This document shows, piece by piece, positions 19,826 to 43,497 of a DNA stretch of 43,581 nt. The stretch's first letter is position 1; each line of letters opens with the position of its first letter. The translations under genes were made by a program, and so were the position numbers. Under the pieces are notes generated by a model. The model was not told the DNA's origin and ran no database searches. It saw only the letters and a program-made list of their open reading frames with translations. The DNA comes from Bacteroidales bacterium (lineage in GTDB: Bacteria; Bacteroidota; Bacteroidia; Bacteroidales; P3), in assembly GCA_017940465.1 (NCBI GenBank), contig JAGAYN010000055.1, positions 1 through 43,581 on the forward strand. The letters run 5' to 3'.

Positions 19826-19900
19826 CAATGGCCCATAAGCGGTCATATCGGTTCTCAGTCGAAGTAAATACCTAGGGGATACCTACAGGATACCTACAAG
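19826..19900 (+). repeat. Dispersed 3'-end element, copy 1 (after valS)
   Basis: The invariant 28-bp core is at 19844-19871 (begins CATATCGGTTCTCAGTC). A less conserved head (AATGGCCCATAAGCGG) precedes it and three 11-bp units of the type ATACCTACAGG follow (19868-19900). It begins 9 bases after the valS stop, in the same orientation as valS. Confidence 0.95.
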
Positions 19901-19918
19901 CCCCCTGGCGGGCAGAAA

Positions 19919-19948
19919 GAGCCTCCCGCCTCGGAGCGGGAGGCTTTA
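19919..19948 (+). terminator. Terminator after valS
   Basis: GCCTCCCGC (19921-19929) pairs with GCGGGAGGC (19936-19944) around CTCGGA, then TTTACG. The stem is strong and the T-run short. Confidence 0.75.
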
Positions 19949-19992
19949 CGCATTGAGGCCCACAGAGTTAGCCTATATGTGGAAAAATAATA

Positions 19993-20023
19993 TTGGGCGG
20001 CTGGAAATTTTTTGCTACTTTTG
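19993..20023 (+). promoter_or_regulatory. Promoter of the lipoprotein/DUF5723 genes
   Basis: TTG (19993-19995), a 20-base spacer and TACTTTTG (20016-20023) match the Bacteroidota consensus. The leader to the ATG at 20070 is about 40 bases. Confidence 0.8.
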
Positions 20024-20069
20024 CAGTGTAATAACAACCTGCCATACATACACAACAAATTGATTGACA

Positions 20070-21524
20070 ATGAAAAAAAGATTGAAAACACTCGCCCGCG
20101 CCCTCTGTGTCGCCATCGTCGCGGCAGGAGCGCTGAACGTCAGCTCCTGCATCAAAGAGGGCGACCTCGACATTTTCACACACCCGATTGACATGCAATT
20201 CAACTTCAGTCCGCACTATGGCTTCCCCATCGCCTACGGCGAACTCAACCTGAACGACATACTTACCCGGCTGGCAAAGAAAGACTCCACCGTGAACTCC
20301 TATATCGACACGAACAGCGACGTGCTCACCTTCGTGTTCAGCGGCGAGAAGACAGACTCCATCTTCCCCCTCTCCTTCCTCGGGGACGCCACCAACCCCA
20401 AGGCGGCAAACCATAAGCGGCGAGCGGAACACAAGACGCATCATTTAAAATACGGCAGCCACAAGGACACGCCGTGGTACTACGTAGACACCGTCTTCCA
20501 CGACACCGTCCCCATAGACCTCTTCGACCATGCCGTCATCAAGGAAAACGTGGTGGACAACGGAATCGAACTAACCAATGCGTGGCTCACCCTGTCGGTG
20601 AAAGCCAACGGCGAATATCTCAACCCCTCGTGGGATTCGTTGCTCAACCCCTACGTGCATGTGGTGTTCGACAGCGTGAGCGTGGTGGCCGTGGGGCATG
20701 GAAATGTCGATGACTCGGTCTCAAGCGGTGAAGTCGGCATCAACTCCGTGGTCATCAATGACATCACAAAAGACACCCTCTATTCATTCGAAAACATCGA
20801 CCTGGCCAAGCTCTTCAACGTATATCCGAAAGAGATTGTATACACCTACCGCCTGCGGTTGCAGATATCGCCGGACATTGTGTCGTCGGACATCGTGACA
20901 CGCCCGTTCAGGGAAGTGCTGGATACGCTCTCGCTGACGAAATTCTTCTATACCGCCAAGGCAAAGCTTACGCTTCCCATGAGCCTGAAAGTGCCGTCGC
21001 TCGACTATGCCTACTACCTGAATTGGAACGGCGGCAGCGGCCAATCGCTGGGCGAAATGCTGGACAGCATCGGCAAGTCGCTGGACGAAGGCCTCTCAAT
21101 CGGCTTGGACAACCTGTCGCTACAACTGAAATTCGACAACGGCATACCCCTCGGCTTCGGACTGAATGCCTGGTTCCTCGATGCCGACAGCACAGTACTC
21201 CACAAGCTGGTTCCCGACAGAAACTACATCGAAGCCGCACCGCTGCAAAACGGCACAGCCTCGGGTTCAACGCTTACCACCATCAACTTCAATGTGGACA
21301 GCCAGAGCCTGGACAAAGTCAAACAGGCGTCGATAATACAGCTGCTAATGCACCTCAACACGTCAGGAGGGCAGCATGCGGCAGTGAAGATTGACGACTT
21401 CCTGCGCATCAAGGCCTATATGCAGGTAAAGGTGAATATAAACGGAAAGATAGTGCTGCTGGAGGAGGGCTTCAAGATTCCCTTCATGCCAGACAGCCTC
21501 CTCAACAACTTGAACATGTTCTAA
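20070..21524 (+). CDS. Lipoprotein of unknown function preceding a DUF5723 protein
   Basis: A 484-residue exported lipoprotein that I do not recognise. ATG 20070 is preferred over the TTG six bases upstream. The signal peptide MKKRLKTLARALCVAIVAAGALNV ends in VSSC with Cys27. The body is rich in beta-strand-like segments and Asp/Asn turns (DVLTFVFSGEKTDSIF, YVHVVFDSVSVVAVGHGNVDDS, YTYRLRLQISPDIVSSD), suggesting repeated beta-sandwich domains at the cell surface. A His/Lys-rich stretch at about residues 115-133 (NHKRRAEHKTHHLKYGSHK) looks inserted. It is followed after 58 bases by the DUF5723 gene; the two probably share the promoter and act together in the outer membrane. Confidence 0.82.
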   Translation: MKKRLKTLARALCVAIVAAGALNVSSCIKEGDLDIFTHPIDMQFNFSPHYGFPIAYGELNLNDILTRLAKKDSTVNSYIDTNSDVLTFVFSGEKTDSIFPLSFLGDATNPKAANHKRRAEHKTHHLKYGSHKDTPWYYVDTVFHDTVPIDLFDHAVIKENVVDNGIELTNAWLTLSVKANGEYLNPSWDSLLNPYVHVVFDSVSVVAVGHGNVDDSVSSGEVGINSVVINDITKDTLYSFENIDLAKLFNVYPKEIVYTYRLRLQISPDIVSSDIVTRPFREVLDTLSLTKFFYTAKAKLTLPMSLKVPSLDYAYYLNWNGGSGQSLGEMLDSIGKSLDEGLSIGLDNLSLQLKFDNGIPLGFGLNAWFLDADSTVLHKLVPDRNYIEAAPLQNGTASGSTLTTINFNVDSQSLDKVKQASIIQLLMHLNTSGGQHAAVKIDDFLRIKAYMQVKVNINGKIVLLEEGFKIPFMPDSLLNNLNMF

Positions 21525-21582
21525 CCCACAACAATTGATACAACGGGCATTCCCCGTCTCCACCAACCCCCAAAGACACAAC

Positions 21583-23133
21583 ATGACAAAGAAACAACGA
21601 TACATACTTCCCCTGCTGGCAATGCTGCTGCTGGGGGCGCCGGCCAAGGCGCAGTACGACGAGACCAACAACCTCTTCTACCATGCCATCCGGACACCGC
21701 AGACAAACCTGCTCAACCCCGCCCTCTTCCCCGGGCGCAACAGTTTCTACCTGGCACTTCCCGGGATGGACCTGCAGTTTGGATCCCCCCTGGCCATCAA
21801 CGACCTGCTGCGCTACGACCCCGCCACGGAGCGGACCACCATATATGTGGATTCGTTACTGCAGAAGCTCTCGCAAGACAACAAGCTACGCCTCGGCTTC
21901 GACCTGCAGGTGCTGGGATTCGGATTGAAAATCAAACGCCTGTTCCTCGACGCCAACGTGCGGCTGCGGACATCGCTGAGCGTCGGTCTCCCCATCAGCC
22001 TTTTCAATGAACTCGTGGAGGGCAATATCGACAACAACGGGGAGACTCGCCAGATGAACTTCCTCAACGGCGACCTGCTCAACACACAGAGCTACCTGGA
22101 AACCTCGGTCGGTGCGGGCTGGAACTTCGAGCAGTGGAACCTGACTGCGGGCGTCCACGCCAAGATGCTCTCCGGCATCTGGAACATGCAGACCGACCGC
22201 ACCAGCATCTCCCTGAAGACCGCCCCCGACAAGGAAGAGATGACGGCAAGCATATACTATGAAATGCAGGGATCAGCCATAGTGCCCTACGACACAGCCA
22301 AGGGACTCATCATGGACAGCCTGACCGATGTGAACAACATCCTCCACAGCCTGCTCGGCAACAACGGCTTCGCCCTCGACCTCGGATTGAAGTACGAGCT
22401 GGGTCCGCTAACACTCTCGTTCTCCGTACTCGACCTCTCGCCCGGCATCCATTGGCGGAAGAACCCCTTCTCGCTCTCGCCCGTGACGGACACCGCATTG
22501 GTGCTGCATATCAAAGGCGCCGATGTGAACACCTTCATCGACAACGGAGACTTCACGACAGAAAACTTTGTAGACGAACTCAAAGACCGCCTGGACAGCC
22601 TCAAACTAACCTACCGCACGGGCGACAACCTGGACTACTGGTACTCGCTGCCCACCAAGATCAACGTCGGCGCCTCCCTCTCCCTCTCCACCATGCTCCG
22701 CGTCGGCCTGCTGTTCCACGGCCAGTTCGACCGCGGCCTCATCAGCAAGAGCAACCCCGTGGAAGGCTACACAGCCGCCTACACCAACACCTTCCGCTGG
22801 AACACCACCCTCTCGGCCTCCGTCAACCTCTTCAACTGGATTGAACTCATCGCGGGCACCTCCATCGTATACGACGGCAAACACATGGACCTCTTCAACC
22901 CCGGCGCAGGAATATCCATCGCGATCGGCACCTTCTTCCAAACATACCTCATCGGCGACTACACAAGCAACATCCGCCTCGTGGAAGCCAAAGCCTTCAA
23001 TGCGAAGTTCGGCGTCAACCTGCTCATCGGCAGGGGCGGCAAAAAAAAGAAAATCGTCAAGGAATACATCCCCGTCGAACCGCTGCCCGCGGTCGACAAT
23101 GACGGGGACAGACCCGCTATAGAGGAGGAATAG
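21583..23133 (+). CDS. DUF5723-family predicted outer-membrane protein
   Basis: A 516-residue exported protein. ATG 21583 is chosen because it starts a signal peptide (MTKKQRYILPLLAMLLLGAPAKAQ); an upstream frame to 21535 adds no plausible sequence. The opening of the mature part (NLFYHAIRTPQTNLLNPALFPGRNSFYLALPG) is the hallmark of DUF5723, a Bacteroidota family with a PorP/FadL-like barrel. Strand pairs such as YWYSLPTKINVGASLSLS and RVGLLFHGQFDRGL fit a barrel. The C-terminal tail is charged and probably disordered (GGKKKKIVKEYIPVEPLP...). Function unknown. The der gene starts 3 bases after its stop. Confidence 0.85.
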   Translation: MTKKQRYILPLLAMLLLGAPAKAQYDETNNLFYHAIRTPQTNLLNPALFPGRNSFYLALPGMDLQFGSPLAINDLLRYDPATERTTIYVDSLLQKLSQDNKLRLGFDLQVLGFGLKIKRLFLDANVRLRTSLSVGLPISLFNELVEGNIDNNGETRQMNFLNGDLLNTQSYLETSVGAGWNFEQWNLTAGVHAKMLSGIWNMQTDRTSISLKTAPDKEEMTASIYYEMQGSAIVPYDTAKGLIMDSLTDVNNILHSLLGNNGFALDLGLKYELGPLTLSFSVLDLSPGIHWRKNPFSLSPVTDTALVLHIKGADVNTFIDNGDFTTENFVDELKDRLDSLKLTYRTGDNLDYWYSLPTKINVGASLSLSTMLRVGLLFHGQFDRGLISKSNPVEGYTAAYTNTFRWNTTLSASVNLFNWIELIAGTSIVYDGKHMDLFNPGAGISIAIGTFFQTYLIGDYTSNIRLVEAKAFNAKFGVNLLIGRGGKKKKIVKEYIPVEPLPAVDNDGDRPAIEEE

Positions 23134-23136
23134 AAC

Positions 23137-24441
23137 ATGAACATAGTAGCCATCGTCGGCCGCCCCAATGTCGGCAAATCCACCCTCTTCAACCGCCTCA
23201 CACAGACACGCGACGCCATCGTCGACTCCGTCTCCGGCGTCACGCGCGACCGCCAGTACGGCCACTCCGACTGGAACGGCAAACACTTCTCCGTCATCGA
23301 CACCGGCGGATACGTCATGGGCGGCGACGACCAATTCGAACAGGAAATACGCCGGCAGGTCGCCCTCGCCATCGACGAGGCCGACACCATCCTCTTCCTC
23401 GTCGACGCCCGCGAGGGGCTCACCCCCATGGACCAGGACGTCGCCGACATGCTCCGCCGCCAGCCCAAAACCGTCCTCCTGGTCGTGAACAAAGTGGACA
23501 ACTCGGAGCAGATGAACGCCCTCCCCGAATTCTACGCCCTGGGACTGGGCGACCCCTACCCCATCGCCGGCATCACCGGCAGCGGCACCGGCGAACTGCT
23601 CGACGCCCTCGTGGCCGACTTCGCCGAGGGCGAGGAACAACCCCAGGACGGCCTGCCACGCATCGCCATCGTCGGCCGCCCCAACGTCGGCAAATCCTCG
23701 TTCATCAACATGATCACCGGCGAGCACCGCTCCGTGGTCACCCCCATCGCAGGCACCACGCGCGACTCCGTCTACAGCCGCTACAACCTCTTCGGCTTCG
23801 ACTTCAACTTCGTCGACACCGCCGGCCTCCGCCGCAAAGCCAAAGTCACCGAAAACCTCGAATTCTACTCCGTCCTCCGCTCCGTCCGCGCCATCGAAGT
23901 CTCCGACGTATGCATCCTCATGCTCGACGCCAGCCAGGGCCTCCAGCAGCAGGACCTCAACATCCTCTCCCTCATCCAGCGCAACAACAAAGGCATCGTC
24001 ATCGTCGTCAACAAATGGGACCTCATCGAAAAGGACCACAACACCCACCGCCAGTTCGAACAACTCATCCGCCAGCGCATCGCCCCCTTCGACGACGTCC
24101 CCATCGTCTTCACCTCCGTCATCAACAAACAGCGCATCTTCAAAGTGCTGGAGACCGCCCGCGCCGTCTACCAAGCACGCAGCCGCCGCATCCCTACCGC
24201 CGAACTCAACGAACGCCTCCTACCCATCGTCAAAGAGCAGAACCCACCGCCCGCCTACAAAGGCAAATGGATCAAAATCAAATACATCACCCAACTCCCC
24301 ACCCCCTACCCCCAGTTCGTCTTCTTCTGCAACCTGCCGCAGTACATCCGCGACCCCTACAAACGCTTCGTCGAAAACCGCCTGCGCGACATGTGGGACT
24401 TCCACGGCGTGCCCCTCACCGTCTACTTCCGCGCCAAATAG
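23137..24441 (+). CDS. der: Ribosome assembly GTPase Der (EngA)
   Basis: A 434-residue protein with two GTPase domains in tandem plus a KH-like C-terminal domain. Der is required for 50S ribosomal subunit maturation. The P-loops are GRPNVGKST at residues 8-16 and GRPNVGKSS at about 180-188. Each half has its DxxG (DTGGY; DTAGLRR) and NKxD motifs (NKVDN; NKWDL). The C-terminal section (about 345-434) has the usual ELNERLLP...[16 protein letters not shown] and [26 protein letters not shown]. It starts 3 bases after the DUF5723 stop and is 67 bases upstream of trxA, so it probably sits within a longer transcript. Confidence 0.97.
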
Positions 24442-24508
24442 TGGCACGCTTTTTGCAGCACACAACCGAAAAAACATAGCGACAAACCAACATAAAAACA
24501 CACAAACC

Positions 24509-24823
24509 ATGGAAATCAAAGTCACCGAACAAAACTTCGACGAGCTCCTCAAGAGCCCACAACCCCTCATGATCGACTTCGGAGCCACCTGGTGCGGCCC
24601 CTGCAAAGCCCTCGCACCACGCATCGAGGAACTCGCCTCCGAATATCAAGGCCGCGCCATCATCGGAGCCGCCGACGTCGACGAATGCCCCGAGCTCTCC
24701 GCCCGCTTCCGCATCCGCAACGTCCCCACCGTCCTCTTCTTCAAAGGCGGCGAGGCCGTGGACAAAAGCGTCGGACTCGTGGCCAAGGAGACCCTCGCCG
24801 AAAAACTCAACGCCCTCCTCTGA
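24509..24823 (+). CDS. trxA: Thioredoxin
   Basis: A 104-residue cytoplasmic thioredoxin, reducing disulfides in client proteins at the expense of thioredoxin reductase. The active site is W-C-G-P-C at residues 28-32 (FGATWCGPCKAL), and the cis-Pro is in NVPTVLFF. The length is that of a plain single-domain thioredoxin, with no signal peptide. It is separate from the envelope thioredoxin at 13.3-14.7 kb. The gene ends 37 bases before dispersed repeat copy 2, which carries its terminator. Confidence 0.96.
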   Translation: MEIKVTEQNFDELLKSPQPLMIDFGATWCGPCKALAPRIEELASEYQGRAIIGAADVDECPELSARFRIRNVPTVLFFKGGEAVDKSVGLVAKETLAEKLNALL

Positions 24824-24860
24824 TGGACAGGAAACCGATGTTTAAAAACCTTAAAAAGAG

Positions 24861-24936
24861 CAAATGGCTCATAACGGTTCATATCGGTTCTCAGTCGAAG
24901 TAAATACTTAGAGGATACCTACGGGATACCTATAGG
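24861..24936 (+). repeat. Dispersed 3'-end element, copy 2 (after trxA)
   Basis: The core is at 24880-24907, identical to the other copies. The head is AAATGGCTCATAACGGTT, and three 11-bp tail units occupy 24904-24936. Same orientation as trxA. The last unit forms the left arm of the terminator. Confidence 0.95.
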
Positions 24937-24962
24937 GTGGCAGCCCTATAGGTACCCTTTTT
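24927..24962 (+). terminator. Rho-independent terminator built on repeat copy 2
   Basis: TACCTATAGGG (24927-24937) pairs perfectly with CCCTATAGGTA (24944-24954) around TGGCAG, followed by CCC and five T. The left arm is the end of the dispersed element's third 11-bp unit. Confidence 0.88.
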
Positions 24963-24987
24963 GTTAAAATAAAGTTAAAAACAGCCC

Positions 24988-25917
24988 GTGGAACTCGACA
25001 GCCTATCCCGCTACCGCAACCTATCGCTCTTCGCCCGCCAGGTGGTGGAGGGATTCATCACGGGTCGGCACCGCAGCCCCTACCACGGCTTCTCGGCCGA
25101 ATTCTCGGACTACCGCCAGTACAACCCCGGCGAATCCACCCGCAACATCGACTACCGCCTCTACGGACGCACCGACCGCCTGTATGTCAAACAATTCGAG
25201 GAGGAAACCAACCTGCGCTGCCAACTGGTGATAGACCACAGCGCCTCCATGCTCTTCCCCACCGCGCAGCACGGAAATCCAGAAAAGCCCAACAAGCTGA
25301 CCTTCAGCGCCTACGCCTCGGCCGCACTGATAGAACTGCTCCACCGACAGCGCGACGCCTTCGGCCTCACCCTCGTCTCCTCGCAGATCGACAGCCACAC
25401 GCCCGCCCGCTCCTCCAGCCTCCACCAGAAACACCTGATGGCATTGCTGGACAGCCTCGTGCAACCGCCTAAAGACAGCCCCAAACAACCCTCCGGGACC
25501 GCACTGGCCGAGCCGCTGCACCTCATCGCAGAACAGATACACCGCCGCTCACTCGTCGCCCTCTTCACCGACGCCCTCGTCCGCGACAGCGAGCAGGAAC
25601 CCCTCCTCGACGCCCTGCGACACCTGCGGCACAATAAACACGAGGTGATACTCTTCCACACCTACCACGGCCCAAGCGAACTGGAACTGGACTACGACGC
25701 CCGGCCCCACCTCTTCATCGACCTCGAAAGCGGCCGACAACTCAAACTCACCCCCACCGAAATCGCCCAGACCTACCGCCGGCACATGCACCAAACCTTC
25801 GCCCTCCTCCAGCAGCGCGCCCTCCAGTACCGCATCGACTACCTGCCCGTCGACGTCAGCCTCGGGTTCCACCAAGTGCTGCAACCCTTCCTCTTGAAAA
25901 GAAATAAATCAAAATAA
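24988..25917 (+). CDS. DUF58-domain protein (vWA-like)
   Basis: A 309-residue protein of the DUF58 family, which carries a von Willebrand A-like domain and usually sits beside MoxR ATPases. It opens MELDSLSRYRNLSLFARQVVEGFITGRHRSPYHGFSAEFSDYRQYNPG, with the conserved RPYxxGDxxR-like segment seen as QYNPGESTRNIDYRLYGRTDRLYVK. The metal site D-x-S-x-S is Asp83, Ser85 and Ser87 in VIDHSASM. The GTG at 24988 is the only start that covers the whole family region; no ATG is near. No MoxR gene is in the window. The M20 dipeptidase gene follows after 9 bases, so they share an operon. Its role is uncertain. Confidence 0.9.
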   Translation: MELDSLSRYRNLSLFARQVVEGFITGRHRSPYHGFSAEFSDYRQYNPGESTRNIDYRLYGRTDRLYVKQFEEETNLRCQLVIDHSASMLFPTAQHGNPEKPNKLTFSAYASAALIELLHRQRDAFGLTLVSSQIDSHTPARSSSLHQKHLMALLDSLVQPPKDSPKQPSGTALAEPLHLIAEQIHRRSLVALFTDALVRDSEQEPLLDALRHLRHNKHEVILFHTYHGPSELELDYDARPHLFIDLESGRQLKLTPTEIAQTYRRHMHQTFALLQQRALQYRIDYLPVDVSLGFHQVLQPFLLKRNKSK

Positions 25918-25926
25918 CAGAAACAT

Positions 25927-27279: not shown

Positions 27280-27280
27280 C

Positions 27281-28705
27281 ATGGTCTTTGAAATCCTGCT
27301 TGCCCTCATCGTCGTGGGCGCCATCGTCATCGTGATAATGGAGAACCGCAAGCCCTACCTCTCCCTCTTCTGGGTCATGCTGCTCGCGGTGCTCCCCGGT
27401 ATCGGCGTCGTACTCTACCTCCTCCTTGGGAAAGACTACCGCAGCCGCCGCGTCATCAAAGCCGACGAACTGGCGCGACTGGACGCACTCCGCAACGAAG
27501 CCACCCGCAACGGCATCGTGCATGGCCACCCCTCCGAGAAATATGCCAAACTCGCCGCCATGATGCGCGGAGCCAACGACACACCACTCTTCAAAGGCAA
27601 CCAGGTGCGCATCTTCACCGACTTCACCCCCATGTTCCAGTCCATGCTGGACGACATCGCCGCTGCCAAAGAATTCGTCCACATACAATTCTACATCGTC
27701 GAGGACGACGAAGTAGGGCGCCAGCTGAGCTCCCTCCTCATCCGCAAGGCACAGCAGGGGGTGGACGTGAGGCTCATCTTCGACTCCTGGGCCAACCTCA
27801 CCGTCAAAGGCCGCTACTACGACCACATGCGCCAAGGAGGAGTCCAGGTGCAATCCTTCCAGAAACTGCTGCCCTCCATGCTCACCCGCGAAGTGAACTG
27901 CCGCACCCACCGCAAAATCGTAGTCATTGACGGACAGATTGGCTACACCGGAGGCATGAACATCGCCAAACGCTACCGCGACGGCATCAACCACGGCAAC
28001 TGGCGCGACACACACATCCGCCTGCAGGGACCCGCCGTCTCGCAACTCGAACTCTCCCTGCTCGCCGACTGGCGCTTCTGCACCAAGGAACTGCTGGCCG
28101 ACCGACGCTTCTTCCCACCATCCCACCTCCCCCACATGCCCGAAGGCTCCCCGGGGGCTATGGCCCAGATCATCACCTCCGGACCCATGGACGAATGGAA
28201 CACCGTCATGCAAGGCCTCGTGCAGGTCATAGCCCAAAGCCGCCGCTACCTCTACCTGCAGACCCCATACTTCATCCCCACCCAACCCATCCTCCTGGCC
28301 ATCCGCAACGCAGCCCTCGCAGGCGTGGACGTGCGCCTCATGATGCCCTCCACAGCCGACCGCGGCGCCGTCATGCTCTACGCCTCGCAGTCCTACTTCC
28401 GTGACCTGCTCCCCGCCGGAGTGAAAATCTATATGTACAACAAAGGCTACCTGCATGCCAAAACCATGGTCTGCGACGACGACTTCGTCACCATCGGCTC
28501 CACCAACATCGACCCACGAAGCCTGGAACAAAACTTCGAAGTGAACGCCTTCCTCTACGACAGCGAACTGGCCATACACCAACGCGACATCTTCCTGGAC
28601 GACCTGAAGGAGTGCACCCTGGTGGACCCCGGCGCCTGGGAACACCAGCCGGCATGGCACCGCTTCCGACAGTCCTTCTCCCGCCTCCTGACCCCCATCC
28701 TATAG
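27281..28705 (+). CDS. cls: Cardiolipin synthase
   Basis: A 474-residue membrane phospholipase-D-like enzyme that makes cardiolipin from two phosphatidylglycerols. Two N-terminal helices (about 1-20 and 28-48: FEILLALIVVGAIVIVIM and LFWVMLLAVLPGIGVVLYLLLG) precede two HKD motifs: His210-x-Lys212-x4-Asp217 in THRKIVVIDG, and His392-x-Lys394-x4-Asp399 in HAKTMVCDD. The tail GSTNIDPRSLEQNFEVN is family-typical. Odd point: the final codons and the TAG stop at 28703-28705 lie inside the last 11-bp unit of a dispersed repeat, so the repeat supplies the end of the protein. Last gene of the DUF58-M20-cls operon. Confidence 0.95.
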   Translation: MVFEILLALIVVGAIVIVIMENRKPYLSLFWVMLLAVLPGIGVVLYLLLGKDYRSRRVIKADELARLDALRNEATRNGIVHGHPSEKYAKLAAMMRGANDTPLFKGNQVRIFTDFTPMFQSMLDDIAAAKEFVHIQFYIVEDDEVGRQLSSLLIRKAQQGVDVRLIFDSWANLTVKGRYYDHMRQGGVQVQSFQKLLPSMLTREVNCRTHRKIVVIDGQIGYTGGMNIAKRYRDGINHGNWRDTHIRLQGPAVSQLELSLLADWRFCTKELLADRRFFPPSHLPHMPEGSPGAMAQIITSGPMDEWNTVMQGLVQVIAQSRRYLYLQTPYFIPTQPILLAIRNAALAGVDVRLMMPSTADRGAVMLYASQSYFRDLLPAGVKIYMYNKGYLHAKTMVCDDDFVTIGSTNIDPRSLEQNFEVNAFLYDSELAIHQRDIFLDDLKECTLVDPGAWEHQPAWHRFRQSFSRLLTPIL

Positions 28706-28780
28706 GCACCCTATAGGTATCCGGTAGGTATCCGGTAGGTATTTACTTCGACTGAGAACCGATATGAACGCTTATGGTCC
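28699..28780 (-). repeat. Dispersed 3'-end element, copy 3 (between convergent genes)
   Basis: On the minus strand the core is at 28766-28739. The head is ATTGGACCATAAGCGTT, and four 11-bp tail units run to 28699 (ATACCTACCGG twice, ATACCTATAGG, GTGCCTATAGG). The last unit overlaps the cls stop codon. Orientation follows the minus-strand GIN-barrel gene, whose terminator lies just before it. Confidence 0.95.
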
Positions 28781-28787
28781 AATAAAA

Positions 28788-28812
28788 AGATGGGTGCCGA
28801 CGGCACCCATCT
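28788..28812 (-). terminator. Terminator of the sigma/anti-sigma/barrel operon
   Basis: AGATGGGTGCC (28788-28798) pairs perfectly with GGCACCCATCT (28802-28812). On the minus strand it is followed by TTTTTATT. It may also stop cls transcription on the other strand, though there the T-run is missing. Confidence 0.9.
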
Positions 28813-28827
28813 TCAATACAATGAACA

Positions 28828-30108
28828 TCAGTCTATTGAGATAATTATGCCAAACTTCACCGGATAGAGTTCCTGCACGGAGGACTTCATGGTGCTCATG
28901 GTGGCCGTCTGGAAGTAGAGGCCGAAGCCGTTGCACGTGAGCGTGGCGCGGAGGTCCAGTTTGTAGGGATTGACAAACCTGTTCACGCTCTGGTCCTTAT
29001 GGAGTTCGCTGCGGCTGTCGGAGTCGTACTCTTGGTGTATGCCAGTGTGGCTGCCGCTCCAGTGGAGACCCGGCAAGGCGGCCAGGGTGAGTTGCCAGTC
29101 GTGCCAAAGGTCGATGCGCAGCGAAACCGGAAGCACCACATACCGCGTCAGCATCCGCGACGAACACTGCTCGTCAGTGCCCTCGGCAAAGGCGGCGGCA
29201 GAAGGGTCGAACATCACCTCGGGGACGTTGAACTTATACTTGTCCCAATCGAGGCCGATGCCGAGGTAAAGACCCGTGTGGCGCGTGCCGAGGAGGGGGT
29301 AGTTGACCGAGAGGTGGATGTGGTTGAACGAGGTGCGCACGTCGGCCGCACCGTCCACGCCGGAGAAGCCCTCGAACATCGACGAACCCCAGTTGTGGAA
29401 ACCCCAGGCGAAGTCAAGAGCCACGTCGCGGCGTTGCCAGAAGGAGCCATTCCCCTTTCCCGAGCCCTCCTCCTGTTCGCCGAGGGGAATCCCGTGCCTG
29501 TAGGGCGTTACGCTCCCGCTGTCGCAGAGGTTGAAGTCAATGCTCGACTGGTCCTCGACGTGCACCGTGCCATCGCCCGTCTGCGAAGCGTCGGCCTTGC
29601 AGGCGAGGTCGATCTTGGAGAAATCGCTGGAGGCGAAGTCGAAGCGCGAGCACGACATGACGGTTTCGGAACTGATGCGCGACCAGTCCTCGGCCTGCAG
29701 CGTGAGGCTGGCGGCATGCACCGTGTCGTCCAGCGTCCCGCGGAACTGCGCCGACGCGTGGTCCTCGGTGTGGACAGCGAAGCGGTCGCGCATACCGAAC
29801 GAGCCCTTGAAGACCAGCGACGCACGGTCCTCGGCCACAAACGCCATCGAATGCCCGGCGGGCAGCGTGATGCGCACGAAGGCGTTGCCATCGATTGTCA
29901 TGCGGTTGCCCCTGATGGTGGCCACCTGGCTGTTGTCCTCCGCGGTGAGTGTCAGGGCGAGGCCTTCAGTCACCGTGAGGCTTGCACGGTCTTCCACGCG
30001 AATCTCGCTGACGCTCTCCGGGATAGCCTGCTGGAAGGTCTGCCCCTGCAGGGCCACGGGAATCATGGCGGCGACGAAAGCCGCCAGGCGGGTGAATCTC
30101 TTTTTCAT
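28828..30108 (-). CDS. GIN-like head plus outer-membrane beta-barrel protein
   Basis: A 426-residue exported protein. The signal peptide is MKKRFTRLAAFVAAMIPVALQGQ. Residues about 30-200 are a repeating beta pattern (VEDRASLTVTEG, LTAEDNSQVATIRG, VAEDRASLVFKG, QAEDWSRISSE, VEDQSSIDFNL) like the GIN/DUF2807 right-handed helix domain, in which ED-x-S-S turns recur about every 25-30 residues. Residues about 235-426 resemble a small outer-membrane beta-barrel (VALDFAWGFHNWGSSMFEG, LYLGIGLDWDKYKF) and end KFGIIISID. It is the last gene of the ECF operon; its start overlaps the anti-sigma stop (ATGA). It is probably the main target or sensor of that system, an inference from position. Confidence 0.82.
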   Translation of the reverse strand: MKKRFTRLAAFVAAMIPVALQGQTFQQAIPESVSEIRVEDRASLTVTEGLALTLTAEDNSQVATIRGNRMTIDGNAFVRITLPAGHSMAFVAEDRASLVFKGSFGMRDRFAVHTEDHASAQFRGTLDDTVHAASLTLQAEDWSRISSETVMSCSRFDFASSDFSKIDLACKADASQTGDGTVHVEDQSSIDFNLCDSGSVTPYRHGIPLGEQEEGSGKGNGSFWQRRDVALDFAWGFHNWGSSMFEGFSGVDGAADVRTSFNHIHLSVNYPLLGTRHTGLYLGIGLDWDKYKFNVPEVMFDPSAAAFAEGTDEQCSSRMLTRYVVLPVSLRIDLWHDWQLTLAALPGLHWSGSHTGIHQEYDSDSRSELHKDQSVNRFVNPYKLDLRATLTCNGFGLYFQTATMSTMKSSVQELYPVKFGIIISID

Positions 30109-32929: not shown

Positions 32930-32931
32930 TC

Positions 32932-33852: not shown

Positions 33853-33903
33853 TTTTTTTCTTGTTTTTAAATATGGATTTCAATTACTTCATGAAGCCAC
33901 GGG

Positions 33904-33953
33904 CATCATTGACATCGTCGGCGATGAAGATTGCTTCGGGGATGTCAATGATG
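33904..33953. repeat. Intercistronic inverted repeat between serC and serA
   Basis: CATCATTGACATC (33904-33916) and GATGTCAATGATG (33941-33953) are perfect 13-bp reverse complements around a 24-base loop. The loop has its own small hairpin (GAAG-ATTG-CTTC). The sequence AAGATTGCTT also recurs directly at 33965. It could control serA expression relative to serC by mRNA processing or stabilisation. Confidence 0.8.
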
Positions 33954-33973
33954 TCCCTGGCGTCAAGATTGCT

Positions 33974-35074: not shown

Positions 35075-35143
35075 TTTGTTTTATTGTTTAAAAGGTTTAT
35101 TTTTAATTAATTATACAATAAATCCACTTCTCTTGTACGGCAA

Positions 35144-35173
35144 CAAAAATAGGAAAAAAAAACAATACGCAAA
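35144..35173 (-). promoter_or_regulatory. Promoter of the serC operon
   Basis: On the minus strand TTTG (35173-35170), an 18-base T-rich spacer and TATTTTTG (35151-35144). The leader to the ATG at 35074 is about 65 bases. No gene is seen in 35075-35491; the rest holds an 11-bp array and the tpiA upstream region. Confidence 0.65.
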
Positions 35174-35320
35174 AAAAAACTTCATCCTTGCGCCACTTTT
35201 CTTCTCCGAGACGTCCCGAGGGGGCCGCCCCCACCCCGGTGCGGCAGCGGCGCAGGGCCGCCGGAAGTCCGATGCAGGGACGCTTATTCCGTGTTCGTTC
35301 ACCGTAAGTTCTACGCTTTA

Positions 35321-35400
35321 AAAGCGGAGAAATAGCGGAGAAATACCGAAGAAATAGCGGAGAACTGTCGGAGAACTGACGGCCCGGGTCCGGAACTGCG
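35321..35400. repeat. 11-bp tandem array upstream of tpiA, 7 units (AGCGGAGAAAT)
   Basis: The core CGGAG or close variants recur at 35325, 35336, 35347, 35358, 35369, 35380 and 35391, every step exactly 11 bp. Units drift from AGCGGAGAAAT to GTCGGAGAACT. Confidence 0.9.
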
Positions 35401-35491
35401 GCGCGCCGGAGGGCATTTTTTTTCGGACCGATATACTATTCCGCTCCGTCGCGCGTTACATAGGGTATTTAACTTTAACACCTAAAAAACA

Positions 35492-36252
<761 letters not shown>

Positions 36253-36253
<1 letters not shown>

Positions 36254-37494: not shown

Positions 37495-38972
37495 AGACAC
37501 AGGTGAAGATAACGCTGATGGCCCTGCTGCTGGCACTCTCGCTGGTGGCCCTGTGGCAGGTGCAGAAAGTGGCGCACGAGGTGCGCCTGGGCGAGGAGGC
37601 CAAGATACGCCTCTGGGCCAACGCCATCAGCCAGCGCAACCAGATGGCCGACGCCACGCGTGAATTCTTCGAACAGGCCACCCTCGACGAGCACCGCAAG
37701 CTGCGCCTCTACACCGACATCCTGCAGTCGTTCAACGACCCGGACCAGACTACCGACCTGCGCTTCAGCCTGGCATATATACATTATATAGTAGACTCCG
37801 CACACACCCCCATCATCATCACCACAGCCACCGACTCCCTCATCACCGTGCCGCAGGAGCTGGCCGGACAGAAACTGGAGGGCGACCTGCTGGCGGAGTA
37901 CTCGCACAACCCGCCCTTCCACTACCGCATCTGGGGCATGCCCATGGCGCTGTACTACAAAGAGTCGCAGTACTACACACAGCTGCGCCAGGTGCTGGAG
38001 GGCTACACGCGCTCGTTCCTGACCGACATCACGGCCAACTCGGTGCCGGTGCTGATTGTGGACAGCTCGCGCCGGCAACTGCTGGCCCTGGGCAACATCG
38101 ACTCCAGCGAGGTGGACACCCCCGCCAAGCTGCAGCGACGGCTGGAGGCCACGGAGCGGTCCAACACGCCCGTGCAAATCACGCTCCCCTCGGGAAACAG
38201 GGCCTACGTCTACTACGAGAAGTCGCCCCTGCTGCGCACCCTCCGCTGGGTGCCCACGCTCTACCTCTTCATCGCCCTGGTGCTCCTCATCACCGGCTAC
38301 CTCTTCTTCCGCACGGCACACACTATGGAGCAGAACCGCATCTGGGTGGGCCTGGCCAAGGAGACGGCACACCAGCTGGGCACACCCATCAGCTCGCTCT
38401 CGGGATGGCTGGAGTATCTGCGCGGAAAGGAGTTCACACCGCAGTACGCCACCGAGGTGGAGAAGGACCTGCGGCGGCTGGGCACCATCACCCAACGCTT
38501 CTCCAAGATAGGCTCGGTGCCCGAACTGCAGGACACCAACGTACGCGAGACCGTGGAGCAGGCCGTGCAGTACCTCGAGGGACGCACCTCCAGGAAGATA
38601 CACTACACCGTCTCCTTCCCCGACGACCAGCCCTTCATCGCCCCGCTGAACGGGCACCTCTTCGAGTGGGTCATCGAGAACCTCTGCCGCAACGCCGCCG
38701 ACGCCATGGACGGCGCAGGCACCATCACCATAGTGGGCTCGCAGGACACACGCCACATCTACCTCGACATCAGCGACACCGGACGCGGCATGAGCCCGTC
38801 GGTGCAGAAGCACATCTTCGACAGCGGCTTCACCACCAAGGCCCGCGGCTGGGGCCTGGGGCTCCCGCTGGCGCGGCGCATCATCAACCAGTACCACCGC
38901 GGACGGCTCTACCTCAAGTACTCCGTCCCCGGACAGGGCAGCTGTTTCCGCATCGTGCTGCGCAAAAAATAG
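37491..38972 (+). CDS. Membrane sensor histidine kinase
   Basis: A 493-residue histidine kinase. Two membrane helices (about 7-23 and 253-273) frame a periplasmic sensor region of about 225 residues, with no HAMP or PAS domain recognised. The dimerisation/phosphoacceptor segment is LAKETAHQLGTPISSLSGWLEYL with His294. The ATPase domain shows the N box (ENLCRNAADAM, near 396), DTGRGM, FDSGFTTK and GWGLGLPLARRI. This HQLGTP group is common in Bacteroidota. No response regulator is in the window, so it is an orphan here; the partner must be elsewhere. The start overlaps the permease stop by four bases. Confidence 0.93.
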   Translation: MKTQVKITLMALLLALSLVALWQVQKVAHEVRLGEEAKIRLWANAISQRNQMADATREFFEQATLDEHRKLRLYTDILQSFNDPDQTTDLRFSLAYIHYIVDSAHTPIIITTATDSLITVPQELAGQKLEGDLLAEYSHNPPFHYRIWGMPMALYYKESQYYTQLRQVLEGYTRSFLTDITANSVPVLIVDSSRRQLLALGNIDSSEVDTPAKLQRRLEATERSNTPVQITLPSGNRAYVYYEKSPLLRTLRWVPTLYLFIALVLLITGYLFFRTAHTMEQNRIWVGLAKETAHQLGTPISSLSGWLEYLRGKEFTPQYATEVEKDLRRLGTITQRFSKIGSVPELQDTNVRETVEQAVQYLEGRTSRKIHYTVSFPDDQPFIAPLNGHLFEWVIENLCRNAADAMDGAGTITIVGSQDTRHIYLDISDTGRGMSPSVQKHIFDSGFTTKARGWGLGLPLARRIINQYHRGRLYLKYSVPGQGSCFRIVLRKK

Positions 38973-39049
38973 CCCCACAGGGCATCCCACACAATAATTC
39001 ACCCCCACACATCGTTACACAACATCAGAACAACAACCAACACAACGCA

Positions 39050-40564
39050 ATGGCAAATCAAGACGACATCTTCAAAAAGGTAGTGGCTCACGCCAAAGAA
39101 TACGGCTTCATCTTCCCCAGTTCGGAGATCTACGACGGCCTCGCGGCGGTCTACGACTACGGCCAGCTCGGCGTCGAGCTGAAGAACAACATCAAGCAGT
39201 ACTGGTGGCGCTCCATGGTACAGATGCACGAGAACATAGTGGGTCTGGACAGCGCCATCTTCATGCACCCGCGCATCTGGAAGGCCAGCGGGCACGTGGA
39301 CGCCTTCAACGACCCCCTCATCGACAACAAGGACAGCAAGAAACGCTACCGTGCCGATGTCCTCATCGAGGACCACATCGGCAAAATCGAGGACAAAATC
39401 GACAAAGAGGTCGAGAAGGCGCGCAAACGCTTCGGCGACGCCTTCGACGAAGCCCAGTTCCGCTCCACCAACGCCCGCGTCCTGGAGCACCAGCAGAAGA
39501 TTGACGACATCCGCAACCGCTTCGCCGCCCTGATGAATGCGGGCGACCTGGACGGGCTCAAACAACTCATTCTCGACCTGGAGATTGTCTGCCCCGTCAG
39601 CGGCACGCGCAACTGGACCGATGTGCGCCAGTTCAATCTGATGTTCGCCACCAAGATGGGATCCGTCATCGACGACAGCGACACCCTCTACCTCCGCCCC
39701 GAGACGGCGCAGGGCATCTTCGTCAACTTCCTCAACGTGCAGAAGAGCGGCCGCATGAAGGTCCCCTTCGGCATCGCGCAGATTGGCAAAGCCTTCCGCA
39801 ACGAGATTGTGGCCCGCCAGTTCATATTCCGCATGAGGGAGTTCGAGCAGATGGAGATGCAGTTCTTCGTGCGGCCCGGCACCGAGCTGGAATGGTTCCG
39901 CTACTGGAAGGAGGAGCGCCTCAAATGGCACCTCGCCCTCGGCATCCCCGAGGAGTGCTACCGCTACCACGACCACGAGAAGCTGGCCCATTACGCCAAC
40001 GCCGCCACCGACATCGAATTCCGCTTCCCCTTCGGCTTCAAGGAGCTGGAGGGCATCCACAGCCGCACCGACTTCGACCTCTCGCGCCACAGCGAATTCA
40101 GCGGCAAGAAACTGCAGTATTTCGACAGTGAACTCAACGAGAGCTACACGCCCTACGTCATCGAGACCTCCATCGGCGTCGACCGCACCTTCCTGGCCGT
40201 CTTCAGCCATGCCCTGAAAGAGGAGGCGTTGGAGGATGGCAGCACGCGCACGGTGCTCTCGCTGCCCGCCCGCCTGGCGCCCTACAAGGCCGCCGTGCTC
40301 CCGCTGGTGAAGAAGGACGGCCTGCCCGAGAAGGCACGCGAGATCATGGACCTGCTCAAGCAGGACCTCATGGTGCAGTACGACGAGAAGGACGCCATCG
40401 GCCGCCGCTACCGCCGCCAGGACGCCATCGGCACCCCGTTCTGCATCACCGTGGACAGCGAAACCCTCGCCGACAACGCCGTCACCGTGCGCCACCGCGA
40501 CACCATGCAGCAGGAACGCGTCGCCATCGACCGGCTGCCGGCCTACCTCAAGGCACAGCTCTGA
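39050..40564 (+). CDS. glyS: Glycyl-tRNA synthetase (dimeric type)
   Basis: A 504-residue class II synthetase of the single-chain alpha2 type (also called glyQS) that charges tRNA-Gly. Typical segments: GFIFPSSEIYDGLAAVYDYGQLGVELKNNIK near the start, LRPETAQGIFVNF from residue 215, GIAQIGKAFRNEI (motif 2) and SIGVDRTFLAVF (motif 3). The anticodon-binding domain is at the end (RLAPYKAAVLPLVKKDG...). A helical insertion at about 100-165 (KIEDKIDKEVEKARKRFGDAFDEAQF) is usual in Bacteroidales. ATG 39050 is preceded by a short A/C-rich leader 77 bases after the kinase gene. Confidence 0.97.
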   Translation: MANQDDIFKKVVAHAKEYGFIFPSSEIYDGLAAVYDYGQLGVELKNNIKQYWWRSMVQMHENIVGLDSAIFMHPRIWKASGHVDAFNDPLIDNKDSKKRYRADVLIEDHIGKIEDKIDKEVEKARKRFGDAFDEAQFRSTNARVLEHQQKIDDIRNRFAALMNAGDLDGLKQLILDLEIVCPVSGTRNWTDVRQFNLMFATKMGSVIDDSDTLYLRPETAQGIFVNFLNVQKSGRMKVPFGIAQIGKAFRNEIVARQFIFRMREFEQMEMQFFVRPGTELEWFRYWKEERLKWHLALGIPEECYRYHDHEKLAHYANAATDIEFRFPFGFKELEGIHSRTDFDLSRHSEFSGKKLQYFDSELNESYTPYVIETSIGVDRTFLAVFSHALKEEALEDGSTRTVLSLPARLAPYKAAVLPLVKKDGLPEKAREIMDLLKQDLMVQYDEKDAIGRRYRRQDAIGTPFCITVDSETLADNAVTVRHRDTMQQERVAIDRLPAYLKAQL

Positions 40565-40566
40565 CT

Positions 40567-40595
40567 ATGAGGCGGTAAGTAAAAAAAAGCCTCAT
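40567..40595 (+). terminator. Weak hairpin after glyS
   Basis: ATGAGGC (40567-40573) pairs with GCCTCAT (40589-40595) around a 15-base A-rich loop. The T-run is poor, so termination is uncertain. Confidence 0.4.
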
Positions 40596-40610
40596 TTCGG
40601 AAAAAAGTTG

Positions 40611-40618
40611 TATCTTTG
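40611..40618 (+). promoter_or_regulatory. -7 element TATCTTTG for the WG-repeat/pyrC genes
   Basis: TATCTTTG followed by C lies 27 bases before the ATG at 40646, giving a short leader. A good TTTG box upstream is not apparent. Confidence 0.7.
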
Positions 40619-40645
40619 CACTTTGATTTGAAACACAAACCAGTG

Positions 40646-41998
40646 ATGAAACGCATCCCCATAATCCTCCTCACCGCGCTGCTCGCCCTGTGCGCGGCAC
40701 AGGCGCAGACGCCTGCGTACGAGAGTTCTACGCAGAAATTCGGCTACAAAGGCGACAACGGCGCATGGCGCATCAACCCCCAATTCCAGCGCGCCGGTGC
40801 CTTCGAGGGCGGCGCCCGCAAGTGGGCCGCCGTGAAGCTCGACGGCCGCTGGGGCATCATCGACATCGACGGCAACCTTGTGTGCCGCAACGTGTTCGAG
40901 GACAAGGAGGTGGCCCGCGAGGCGGCCCATGAATGGGAGATTATGAGCGAGCCTGGCAAGTGGATCTACCCCGCCCGCAACCCGGCCGACGGCCGCTGGG
41001 GATACGTGGACTACTACGGCCGCTGGCGGTTCCAGCCCGTCTACGAGGCCGCCAGCCAGCACCAGGGCAAGGACCCGAAGAGCTACGCCACCGTGAAGAA
41101 AGAGGGTCGCTGGGGCTGCATCGACGGGCGCGGAGTGCTGGTCATCAACAACATCTTCCTCCGCCAGGAGCATGCCGTCGAGGCCGGCCAGCAGTGGGCC
41201 ATCGGGCGCAACTACTACAAGTGGCGCATCGCCACCACCCACCCCCAGACCGGACTCTGGGGCTATGCCGACTACCTCGGCCGCTGGGCCGTGCAACCGC
41301 AGTACAGCGATGCCGCCCCCTTCGGCGACAACCACCTCTACGACTACGCGCAGGTCAAGCAGGAAGGCCGCTGGGGCAACATCGGGCGCGACGGCGAGGC
41401 CATCACCACCCCCATCTTCTTCTCGCGCGAAGAGGCGGCCTACGCCTTGCGCCAGTATGAGCATGGGCGCGCGCTGGAAGCCTGGCGCTTCCCCGTTAGC
41501 AACCCCGCCGACGGCAAGTGGGGCTGGGTGGACTGGAGCGGCGAATGGCGCATCCAGCCGCAGTTCGAGGCGGCCTCTCACTTCGCCAACGACACCGGCC
41601 TCTTCGCCACAGCGAAATACGACGGCTACTGGATGGTCATCGGCGACACGGGCGAGTTCCTCTCGCGCAACGTCTTCAACCTCAGCTCCGAGGCATGGAC
41701 GGCGGGCCACGAGTGGGACACCGACCAGGAGTTGGGCCATTGGCTCTACCCCATCATGGACCCCGGCACACAGGCGTGGGGCTACGTGGACTACATGGGC
41801 CAGTGGGTCATCAAGCCCACGCTGGAGGACGCCAAGCTCTTCACCTTCGTCTGGAACGACCGCGTGGCACCAGCCAAGATGGACGGCAAGTGGGGCTGCA
41901 TCGACCACACGGGGCAGTTCGTGGTGAAGAACATCTACAACACCTCCGCCGAGGCCGCCGTGGCCGGCCGCCGCTGGGCCGAGGGAAAGAAGTTCTGA
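40646..41998 (+). CDS. Exported WG-repeat protein
   Basis: A 450-residue protein with a signal peptide (MKRIPIILLTALLALCAAQAQ), started at ATG 40646 rather than the TTG inside the promoter. The body is built of about eleven WG (KWG) repeats, roughly 30-35 residues each: RWGIIDIDGNLV, RWGYVDYYGRWRFQP, RWGCIDGRGVLV, LWGYADYLGRWAVQP, RWGNIGRDGEAI, KWGWVDWSGEWRIQP, AWGYVDYMGQWVIKP and KWGCIDHTGQFVV. They probably form a beta-rich scaffold in the periplasm or on the surface. Two repeat types alternate, GYVDYxGxW and GCIDxxG, implying a paired duplication. Function unknown. pyrC starts three bases after its stop. Confidence 0.9.
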   Translation: MKRIPIILLTALLALCAAQAQTPAYESSTQKFGYKGDNGAWRINPQFQRAGAFEGGARKWAAVKLDGRWGIIDIDGNLVCRNVFEDKEVAREAAHEWEIMSEPGKWIYPARNPADGRWGYVDYYGRWRFQPVYEAASQHQGKDPKSYATVKKEGRWGCIDGRGVLVINNIFLRQEHAVEAGQQWAIGRNYYKWRIATTHPQTGLWGYADYLGRWAVQPQYSDAAPFGDNHLYDYAQVKQEGRWGNIGRDGEAITTPIFFSREEAAYALRQYEHGRALEAWRFPVSNPADGKWGWVDWSGEWRIQPQFEAASHFANDTGLFATAKYDGYWMVIGDTGEFLSRNVFNLSSEAWTAGHEWDTDQELGHWLYPIMDPGTQAWGYVDYMGQWVIKPTLEDAKLFTFVWNDRVAPAKMDGKWGCIDHTGQFVVKNIYNTSAEAAVAGRRWAEGKKF

Positions 41999-42001
41999 CG
42001 C

Positions 42002-43390
42002 ATGACAACCATTATCCGCAACGCCACCATCGTCAACGAAGGCCGCCTCTTCACCGGCTCCGTGACAATCGAGGGCGAGACCATTGCCCATATCTCCGAG
42101 AAGTCAGATTATTCTGATTACTCCGATTACTCCGATATTTCCGAAAAATCCGATACCGCCACCGTCATCGATGCCGAGGGGCTGCTGCTGCTGCCGGGCG
42201 TCATCGACACGCACGTGCACTTCCGCGACGGCGGCCGTAGCGAGAACCCCGCCGGCACCTTCCACAGCGAGAGCCGCGCCGCGCGGGCCGGCGGCGTAAC
42301 CTCCGTCATCGACATGCCCAACACCCAGCCCCAGACCACCACCCTCGAGGCTCTGGAGGCCAAGGAAGCCCTCGCCGCACGCGACAGCCTCGTCAACTAC
42401 GGCTTCATGCTCGGCGCCACCAACGACAATATCGACACCCTCCTCGCCATCCCCCCCACCCGTTACGCCGCCATCAAACTCTTCCTCGGCTCCTCCACCG
42501 GCAACATGCTGGTGAACGACCCGCAGCAGCTCGACCGCCTCTTCCAGCACTCCAGGAAACTCATCGTAGCCCACTGCGAAGCCGAGAACATCGTGCAGGC
42601 CAACCTGCACAACCTCAAACTCGAATACCAGGGCACCCCGGGCGAGACCGCCGCCCTGCACCCCAAGGTGCGCAACAACGAAGCCTGCTTCCTCGCCACC
42701 TACCACGCCATCGAACGCGCCCGCAAATACGGTACACGCCTGCACATCGCCCACCTCTCCACCGCCACCGAACTCTCCCTCCTCTCCAATTTCGACATCA
42801 CGGAAAAACACATCACCGCCGAGGTAACCCCCAACCACCTCTGTTTCGACGACCGCGACTACGCCGGGCTGGGCAACCTCATCAAGTGCAATCCCGCCAT
42901 CAAGACCAACGACGACCGCATCGCCCTATGGATGGGACTGGCCGACGACCTCATCGACACCATCGCCACCGACCACGCCCCACACCCCCTGGAAGCCAAG
43001 CAGCGCCCCTACTTCGACGCCCCGTCGGGCATCCCCTCCATACAGCACTCGCTGCAGAGCATGCTCGAAGAGGCATTCCACGACCAAGTGAAGGACGACC
43101 GCGAATGGCAGGAGATGTACCTCGCCATGGTGGTCAGCAAGATGTGCCACAATCCCGCCCTCCTCTTCGGCATCCAGCGGCGCGGCTTCATCCGGCAGGG
43201 CTACCAGGCCGACCTCGTGCTGGTACGCCCGGGCGTGGAAGAGACCGTCACACGCGAATCCCTGCTCTACAAATGCGGCTGGAGCCCCCTCGAAGGGCAG
43301 ACCTTCCACACACGCATCGAGCGCGTTTGGGTCAACGGCCACGACTCCCCCACCCCCACCGCAGCGCAGCCCCTGGCCTTCAGCCGCTGA
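42002..43390 (+). CDS. pyrC: Dihydroorotase
   Basis: A 462-residue amidohydrolase for pyrimidine synthesis (carbamoyl aspartate to dihydroorotate). Metal-site residues: His71 and His73 in DTHVHFRDGG, Lys158 in AIKLFLGSSTG (carbamylated in the family), His190 in IVAHCEAEN, His in LHIAHLST and Asp in IATDHAPH. Most type I enzymes have HVHFREPG; the Asp-Gly here is a change next to the active site. Residues about 32-52 are a repetitive insert (SEKSDYSDYSDYSD...) coded by seven 9-bp units in a tolerant strand-to-strand loop. Allantoinase or hydantoinase is possible but less likely. It follows the WG-repeat gene by three bases. Confidence 0.92.
   Translation: MTTIIRNATIVNEGRLFTGSVTIEGETIAHISEKSDYSDYSDYSDISEKSDTATVIDAEGLLLLPGVIDTHVHFRDGGRSENPAGTFHSESRAARAGGVTSVIDMPNTQPQTTTLEALEAKEALAARDSLVNYGFMLGATNDNIDTLLAIPPTRYAAIKLFLGSSTGNMLVNDPQQLDRLFQHSRKLIVAHCEAENIVQANLHNLKLEYQGTPGETAALHPKVRNNEACFLATYHAIERARKYGTRLHIAHLSTATELSLLSNFDITEKHITAEVTPNHLCFDDRDYAGLGNLIKCNPAIKTNDDRIALWMGLADDLIDTIATDHAPHPLEAKQRPYFDAPSGIPSIQHSLQSMLEEAFHDQVKDDREWQEMYLAMVVSKMCHNPALLFGIQRRGFIRQGYQADLVLVRPGVEETVTRESLLYKCGWSPLEGQTFHTRIERVWVNGHDSPTPTAAQPLAFSR
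42095..42157. repeat. 9-bp tandem repeat (7 units) inside pyrC
   Basis: Units TCCGAGAAG, TCAGATTAT, TCTGATTAC, TCCGATTAC, TCCGATATT, TCCGAAAAA and TCCGATACC. The period equals three codons (Ser-Asp-Tyr type), so unit number can change without a frameshift. It is A/T-richer than the surrounding gene. Confidence 0.9.
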
Positions 43391-43421
43391 CTTCCAGACA
43401 TCTACGAAAGAACCAAGCCCA

Positions 43422-43497
43422 CAAGTGGCTCATAACCGTTCATATCGGTTCTCAGTCGAAGTAAATACCTACAGGATACCTACCAAATACCTACCGG
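43422..43497 (+). repeat. Dispersed 3'-end element, copy 4 (after pyrC)
   Basis: The core is at 43441-43468, identical to the others. The head is AAGTGGCTCATAACCGTT, and three 11-bp units (ATACCTACAGG, ATACCTACCAA, ATACCTACCGG) occupy 43465-43497. Same orientation as pyrC, beginning 31 bases after its stop. Confidence 0.95.

Follow-up and report, generated by a model that had tools for sequence, protein, structure and literature searches.

A family of dispersed 11-bp-unit arrays in a Bacteroidales genome and its spacing along the chromosome

The small dispersed element described here was found in a window of 43,581 nt, the whole stretch of DNA that was analysed, from the forward strand of contig JAGAYN010000055.1 of a Bacteroidales bacterium (GCA_017940465.1). 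Four copies lie in the window; we call them and their relatives in the same genome family A. Each is an array of 11-bp units around a near-invariant core, and congeners carry arrays of the same build in other spellings. What sets these arrays apart is where they sit: within one genome, elements, even those of two different spellings, are almost never closer to each other than about 4 kb. The explanation we favour, tentatively and at somewhat less than an even chance, is that they are small non-coding elements dispersed by copying, similar to REP (repetitive extragenic palindromic) or BOX repeats, and that they act as DNA, in the form of protein-bound arrays each of which shuts others out of about 4 kb around it.

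Results

An element of about 88 bp in an 11-bp register

The first-pass annotation of the window reported four copies with an identical core of 28 bp, and this observation is confirmed: the copies are where it placed them, against 0 expected in 100 shuffles, and a stretch of 29 nt (TCATATCGGTTCTCAGTCGAAGTAAATAC) is identical in all four, preceded by a variable head and followed by a tail of 11-bp units, GATACCTAnnG, as read directly from the sequence. The dispersed family that it extrapolated is real, at about a hundred places rather than the hundreds proposed: in the whole genome (2,237,693 bases, 56 contigs), CAGTCGAAGTAAATACCTA matches 116 places at up to 3 mismatches, and the reversed control matches none. 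The 16-nt core CAGTCGAAGTAAATAC is exact at 112 of these. Our alignment contains 111 copies, a further copy having been placed at C27:92420 and the four with an inexact core left out; positions 0 to 15 are invariant in 111/111, and because these copies were found by searching near the core, 112/116 is the fair figure for its invariance. That the core varies far less than either flank, as had been noted for the window, thus holds genome-wide. The conserved part is considerably longer than the 28 bp first proposed, extending over about 88 bp (about -33 to +55 relative to the core), or eight times 11 bp.

Conserved and variable positions follow the 11-bp register through head, core and tail. The head consists of two units 10 bp apart, CATAAGCGTT and CATATCGGTT, and is non-palindromic in most copies, a few (e.g. 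L093, L116 and L128) having a palindromic head instead. In the tail, the variable pair has a fixed place within the unit, with GG, CA, CC, TG, GA and TA as its main forms, and tail length differs between copies, the longest seen being that of L080. The element is intergenic and modular with a varying number of internal units, as BOX elements are. Linkage between its variable sites is almost gone beyond about 22 bp, mutual information dropping with distance. No period of 11 was seen in the flanks, nor any terminal inverted repeats, by inspection, in the 111-copy consensus. One 3′ extension is common to 11 of the 111 copies, and a twelfth sits at the start of contig C26 (L108); the 75-nt sequences upstream of the eleven differ, which argues that elements were copied whole.

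Spellings differ from genome to genome

The annotation proposed a search for the core in other Bacteroidales, where it turns out not to be general: the spelling of family A was matched neither in a set of 36 congeners and 24 genomes from the order's other families nor in 119 congeners. One exact 19-nt match in the genome collection, in Anaerococcus, is about what chance would give by our own estimate, in a scan that may omit near relatives. Viral contigs, phages and plasmids gave no match, two of the searches each using one copy as query, and a phage or plasmid origin was rejected on that ground. No named repeat was found to match either, in line with the annotation's view that this is not a known repeat family.

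Congeners have spellings of their own. A looser pattern for a sister spelling, AGTCGAAGTATTCACCTA, gave 120 matches in congener G004, 10 in G106 and 7 in G085, against 0–4 in the remaining genomes and up to 3 in controls, and a core-plus-unit pattern gave 133 in G004. Another congener, G142, has the spelling CCGTACATGCACCGTACATG, with 423 unit matches, a single match in each of 4 other congeners and none in 115, and holds a second 11-bp family, CATCTCTTACT. The two families of G142, termed B and C, have a CTGTAAnnCAG-like 5′ module at fixed offsets in 19/28 and 16/52 cases, respectively, against 51 of 1538 background windows. Additional 11-bp arrays (TATATGCTTTC; GAGCGGAGTTA) lie between B and C elements of G142 at C3:55014, C1:246130 and C1:230722, the one at C1:246130 being 2.2 kb from a family C element.

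Counted without regard to spelling, period-11 arrays number 12 in 333 kb from 20 congeners, while the 248 kb examined from 20 other families contain none. The same congener pieces hold 5 arrays of period 10, 4 of period 12, 18 of period 7 and 7 each of periods 21, 22 and 24. The period-7 repeats of these pieces (L215–L234) are a frequent feature in their own right, only 1 being found in the 248 kb of other families. At three places in congeners, an 11-bp array is followed by its own inverted copy (L221:7499 in G028, L225:297 in G072 and L180:4257 in G137), so that the 11-bp units could form a long hairpin.

Could the arrays be kin-recognition or uptake signals, with one spelling per species and a spacing of about one per transferred fragment? 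The genome-specific spellings, intergenic sites and even spacing would fit such a role. A DNA uptake sequence (DUS), however, is only about 12 bp long, far shorter than the present element, and exclusion between two families, as described below, would be unexpected. In Neisseriaceae, which provide the precedent, DUS likewise have many copies and dialects with one spelling per species, but the copies are described as thousands per genome, against about 120 here (PMC3630211). We regard uptake signals as improbable.

Within a genome, elements lie about 4 kb or more apart almost without exception

Spacing in G142 was measured over 802 kb (contigs C1–C3 and 100 kb of C4), with hits within 200 bp merged. 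Families B and C together form 83 elements and 79 gaps, the smallest of which is 3901 bp. No gap is therefore shorter than 3.8 kb. When elements are placed at random between genes, in intergenic gaps with a minimum length of 60, 150 or 200 bp, such short spacings average 24.8, 20.1 and 18.8 and in 5000 runs each never drop below 8. Family C is over-dispersed by itself, with 0/52 gaps under 3 kb against a null of 9.1, or of 4.5 when placement is restricted to gaps of at least 300 bp (P 0.0013). None of 30 family B hits is within 3 kb of a C element, compared with 50% of random gaps, a share that includes gaps holding C elements, so that the joint placement of B and C is the fair test. Family B alone (3/26 gaps under 3 kb, 2.9 expected) says little, because its three short gaps are 79-bp hit pairs inside one inverted array.

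A similar deficit of close pairs is found in two further genomes with other spellings. For G004, spacing was taken from the 100 listed of 133 places, with one 156-bp pair merged; among the matches listed, 0/76 gaps are under 3 kb and 2/76 under 3.8 kb, and for the 55 gaps on C1–C10 among them the nulls are 6.8 and 8.3 (P 0.001 and 0.004). The genome of the window has 2/72 gaps under 3 kb, against a null of 13.6, and 11 under 5 kb, against 21.5, the nulls for this genome and for G004 both using the gene layout of G142. An exclusion distance such as target immunity would produce is thus seen in three genomes, as a pattern and not as proof of immunity. Since B and C differ in sequence, recombination between identical repeats would not be expected to produce their mutual exclusion, and since they have a 5′ module in common, one machinery could see both. 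It is for these two reasons that we favour a DNA element that is copied and whose copies exclude each other in a distance-dependent way. The ordinary recent spread of a neutral repeat, spaced by chance, would explain why near-identical copies are limited to one sampled genome; the spacing nulls speak against it, provided that the assemblies are correct, as does the confinement of variation to fixed register positions, and we rate it marginally below even the uptake signals.

Gene context, orientation and the question of an RNA role

Genes were called with our own hexamer-based caller, and 110 of the 111 cores lie outside them, one being inside a predicted gene. The gaps that hold the cores are co-directional and aligned with the element in 42 cases, co-directional and antisense in 12, convergent in 27 and divergent in 18, with 11 near contig ends and open on one side. 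The upstream gene is co-directional for 76/110 copies and points away for 33/110. The statement in the annotation that copies always follow a gene's 3′ end therefore describes the window's four copies and fails genome-wide, where a 3′-end bias is present but is not a rule. Gene families that recur near copies, some of which could be named, encode secreted, leucine-rich repeat (LRR), FGE-sulfatase and Y1 proteins; besides Y1, the named recurring families include no other mobile genes. One recurring gene family is found at L066, L068, L074, L131, L149, L153 and L154, with a Por_Secre_tail in the L068 member, and 5/7 of these genes have similar 3′ flanks that end in or close to an element.

A role as an RNA element or as a terminator where transcripts end, along the lines suggested in the annotation, could account for the excess of co-directional upstream genes and for the 42 aligned against 12 antisense copies in co-directional gaps. 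Other results do not support it. RNAalifold predicted 13 pairs from 30 copies, 0/13 with a compensatory change; mutual information shows no pairing, its signal being limited to near or 11-bp-spaced positions; and only a tRNA exceeds the Rfam gathering score in the window, with no match at E ≤ 1 in 19700–20100. Several copies, as read from the alignment, directly follow a terminator-like hairpin and T run, and family C of G142 is most often in divergent gaps (24/56). An RNA element was rejected on the absent covariation and the lack of an Rfam match, and we consider a role at transcript ends the least probable of the explanations weighed here.

Orientation was compared with R, the GC skew at 4-fold sites of genes in the sequence pieces, rather than with a leading strand assigned by marker genes. 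The orientation of family A copies agrees with R in 81/111 cases (contig-block permutation, P 0.00015) and, in divergent gaps with abs(R) > 0.05, in 13/13; the genes themselves split 176 to 148 where abs(R) > 0.05. The polarity is absent in G142 (family C 23/56, family B 16/30) and opposite in G004, where 1/7 loci with abs(R) > 0.1 is concordant, and for this reason we do not claim a replichore polarity as general. Neighbouring elements agree in orientation in 48/71 pairs in the genome of the window, 53/76 in G004 and 26/52 for family C of G142.

These data bear on the main rival explanation, in which the arrays are chromosome-organising sites of the host: a nucleoid or topology protein would need a site every 4–15 kb, and selection would keep spacing and core, without the sites being mobile themselves. 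Even spacing in three genomes, the near lack of inexact cores and the skew polarity of family A all argue for it. On the other side, the spelling is not common to congeners, and the polarity is lost in G142 and reversed in the few clear-skew loci of G004. Positions are not clearly conserved between the genome of the window and G142 either: the counts are 8/12 vs 30/64 for C, 6/8 vs 32/68 for B and 14/20 vs 24/56 for both together, with the loci of the first genome picked around elements. GC phasing of the kind known from gyrase sites shows no enrichment among 24 hand-picked units (P 0.26). Taken together, we hold host-organising sites to be rather unlikely, if less so than any other alternative to a copied element.

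Transposases and REP-type repeats

Six Y1_Tnp genes are present in the genome of the window, and element copies lie about 0.9–1.7 kb from 3/6 of them, not adjoining. The flanks of the four Y1 genes that could be read (L209, L210, L212 and L213) carry other repeats or palindromes, and a REP system was rejected for these four. Two of them, L209 and L210 (G000:C10:24384 and C49:43548), are RAYT-like (REP-associated tyrosine transposase) genes beside several copies of short palindromes (CGCCGTAGGCG; GCCTTCTTTCAGAAGGC) and seem to form REP-type systems of their own in this genome. For the element itself, no transposase or two-ended transposon turned up, an autonomous copy not having been searched for systematically.

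The window

The coordinates of the arrays are given in Table 1. Three of the genes upstream of family A copies match the models for valine-tRNA ligase, thioredoxin and dihydroorotase above cut-off, as the names valS, trxA and pyrC in the annotation implied; its GIN-barrel label for the gene at 28828–30108 (-) found no counterpart: at E ≤ 0.001 the gene matches nothing in Pfam or NCBIfam. Copy 3 is convergent with a cardiolipin synthase gene, 27281–28705 (+), and overlaps its last bases. Besides family A, the window holds other 11-bp arrays, which are spaced as family A copies are, a point that the annotation does not make: the arrays at 2.6, 13.1 and 35.3 kb and the copies at 19.9, 24.9, 28.7 and 43.5 kb lie about 3.9 to 10 kb apart. 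One other array is contained in the 485 kb around the remaining family A copies. A pair of 59-nt repeats with 95% identity was also seen, at 3395–3453 and 4229–4287. On the whole, the interpretation in the first-pass annotation is partly supported.

Table 1. Family A copies and other 11-bp arrays in the window.
Feature	Position	Strand	Remarks
Family A, copy 1	19823..19910	+	behind valS; core C at 19856; ends from the 11-bp register of the 111-copy alignment
Family A, copy 2	24859..24946	+	behind thioredoxin gene; core C at 24892
Family A, copy 3	28700..28787	-	behind gene 28828-30108 (-)
Family A, copy 4	43420..43507	+	behind dihydroorotase; core C at 43453
3′ extension after copy 4	43513..43581	+	common to other copies; contig ends inside extension
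Other array, CTTGCTTCTTC unit	2621..2654	.	intergenic
Other array, CGGAGTTGACA unit	12998..13098	.	intergenic
Other array, TGACCCGATAA unit	13185..13221	.	intergenic
Other array, AAATAGCGGAG unit	35320..35374	.	intergenic

Discussion

How might small elements that are copied around a chromosome come to keep their distance? Beyond the observed anatomy, spellings and spacing, we infer a mechanism in which the 11-bp units, one per helical turn, would be the binding sites of a dedicated, putative protein, and a putative enzyme would place copies of the elements between genes. Once bound, an element may then block the arrival or persistence of another one nearby, as in the target immunity of some transposons, and a fast change of the protein–site pair could lead to each genome having its own spelling.

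Several observations weigh against this explanation. If the family were purely mobile, decayed copies would be expected, and only 4 of the 116 places lack the exact core. Neither an enzyme, a binding protein nor a target-site duplication was identified for the element, and there is no clear empty site among the flank matches listed. The spellings of the window's other arrays are unrelated, which makes it hard for one protein to read them all. Exclusion also has exceptions: two pairs in the genome of the window lie at 868 and 2557 bp, both below 3 kb, one pair in G004 is only 156 bp apart, and the 4 and 33 places of these two genomes, respectively, that fall outside the spacing counts could add short gaps.

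Known systems resemble the element in part, and BOX/RUP/SPRITE, BrickBuilt, DUS and the gyrase motif each depart from it, be it in the length of the units, the number of copies, the structure or the logic of the sequence. Units of BOX elements are not known to be 11 bp long. The BOX, RUP and SPRITE repeats of Streptococcus pneumoniae are described as small dispersed repeats nearly limited to one species group, enriched between convergent genes and with a leading-strand share near 61–63%, and BOX as modular, the number of its internal units being variable, all of which is reminiscent of the present family (PMC3049150). They are, however, reported to have extensive secondary structure, for which the present elements gave no support, and their published distribution data, as far as available to us, contain no minimum spacing or exclusion between families (PMC3049150).

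Within Bacteroidales, Porphyromonas gingivalis offers a second comparison. Its BrickBuilt element, a miniature inverted-repeat transposable element (MITE), is likewise intergenic, with tandem units between a leader and a tail, but is described with 23-nt units, small inverted-repeat ends and 19 copies in one strain, in contrast to 11-bp units, no terminal inverted repeats and more than 100 copies here (PMC4596501). The gyrase motif of E. coli, with gyrase sites in the intergenic BIME-2 (bacterial interspersed mosaic element) repeats, is similar in having a central part with arms of period 10.75 bp, but its logic is reported as degenerate GC phasing, unlike the near-invariant sequence found here (PMC6379681). 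The target immunity of Mu and Tn7 provides the parallel for distance-dependent exclusion of new copies, from elements with a transposase and two ends, of which neither turned up here. REP elements and BIMEs, together with their RAYT transposase, are extragenic and numerous, and their spelling differs between species, as it does here; most of the present copies, in contrast, are non-palindromic, and it is other repeats that lie beside the Y1 genes. In literature coverage that mostly excludes subscription journals, we found nothing on dispersed 11-bp arrays in Bacteroidales and no shared spacing rule for such elements.

Finally, we would like to extend the argument from one family to the genus. 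It is possible, though we put it somewhat below our favoured explanation of the element itself, that members of the genus mark their chromosomes by a lattice of 11-bp-unit arrays in a sequence of each species' own, with several families in one lattice, and that a distance-measuring mechanism holds them apart by about 4 kb or more: a chromosome-organising or self-spacing system. We know of no counterpart to such a lattice.

The usual view of small dispersed repeats is that they are parasites, found wherever their insertion causes no damage. The two differently spelled families of G142, which avoid themselves and each other by about 4 kb, do not sit easily with that view, nor do the deficits in the other genomes. 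If the pattern is real, something would measure distance along the chromosome, either at insertion or because the job of the sites needs spacing. The fast change of spelling would then offer a natural experiment, in which a protein co-evolves with over a hundred sites.

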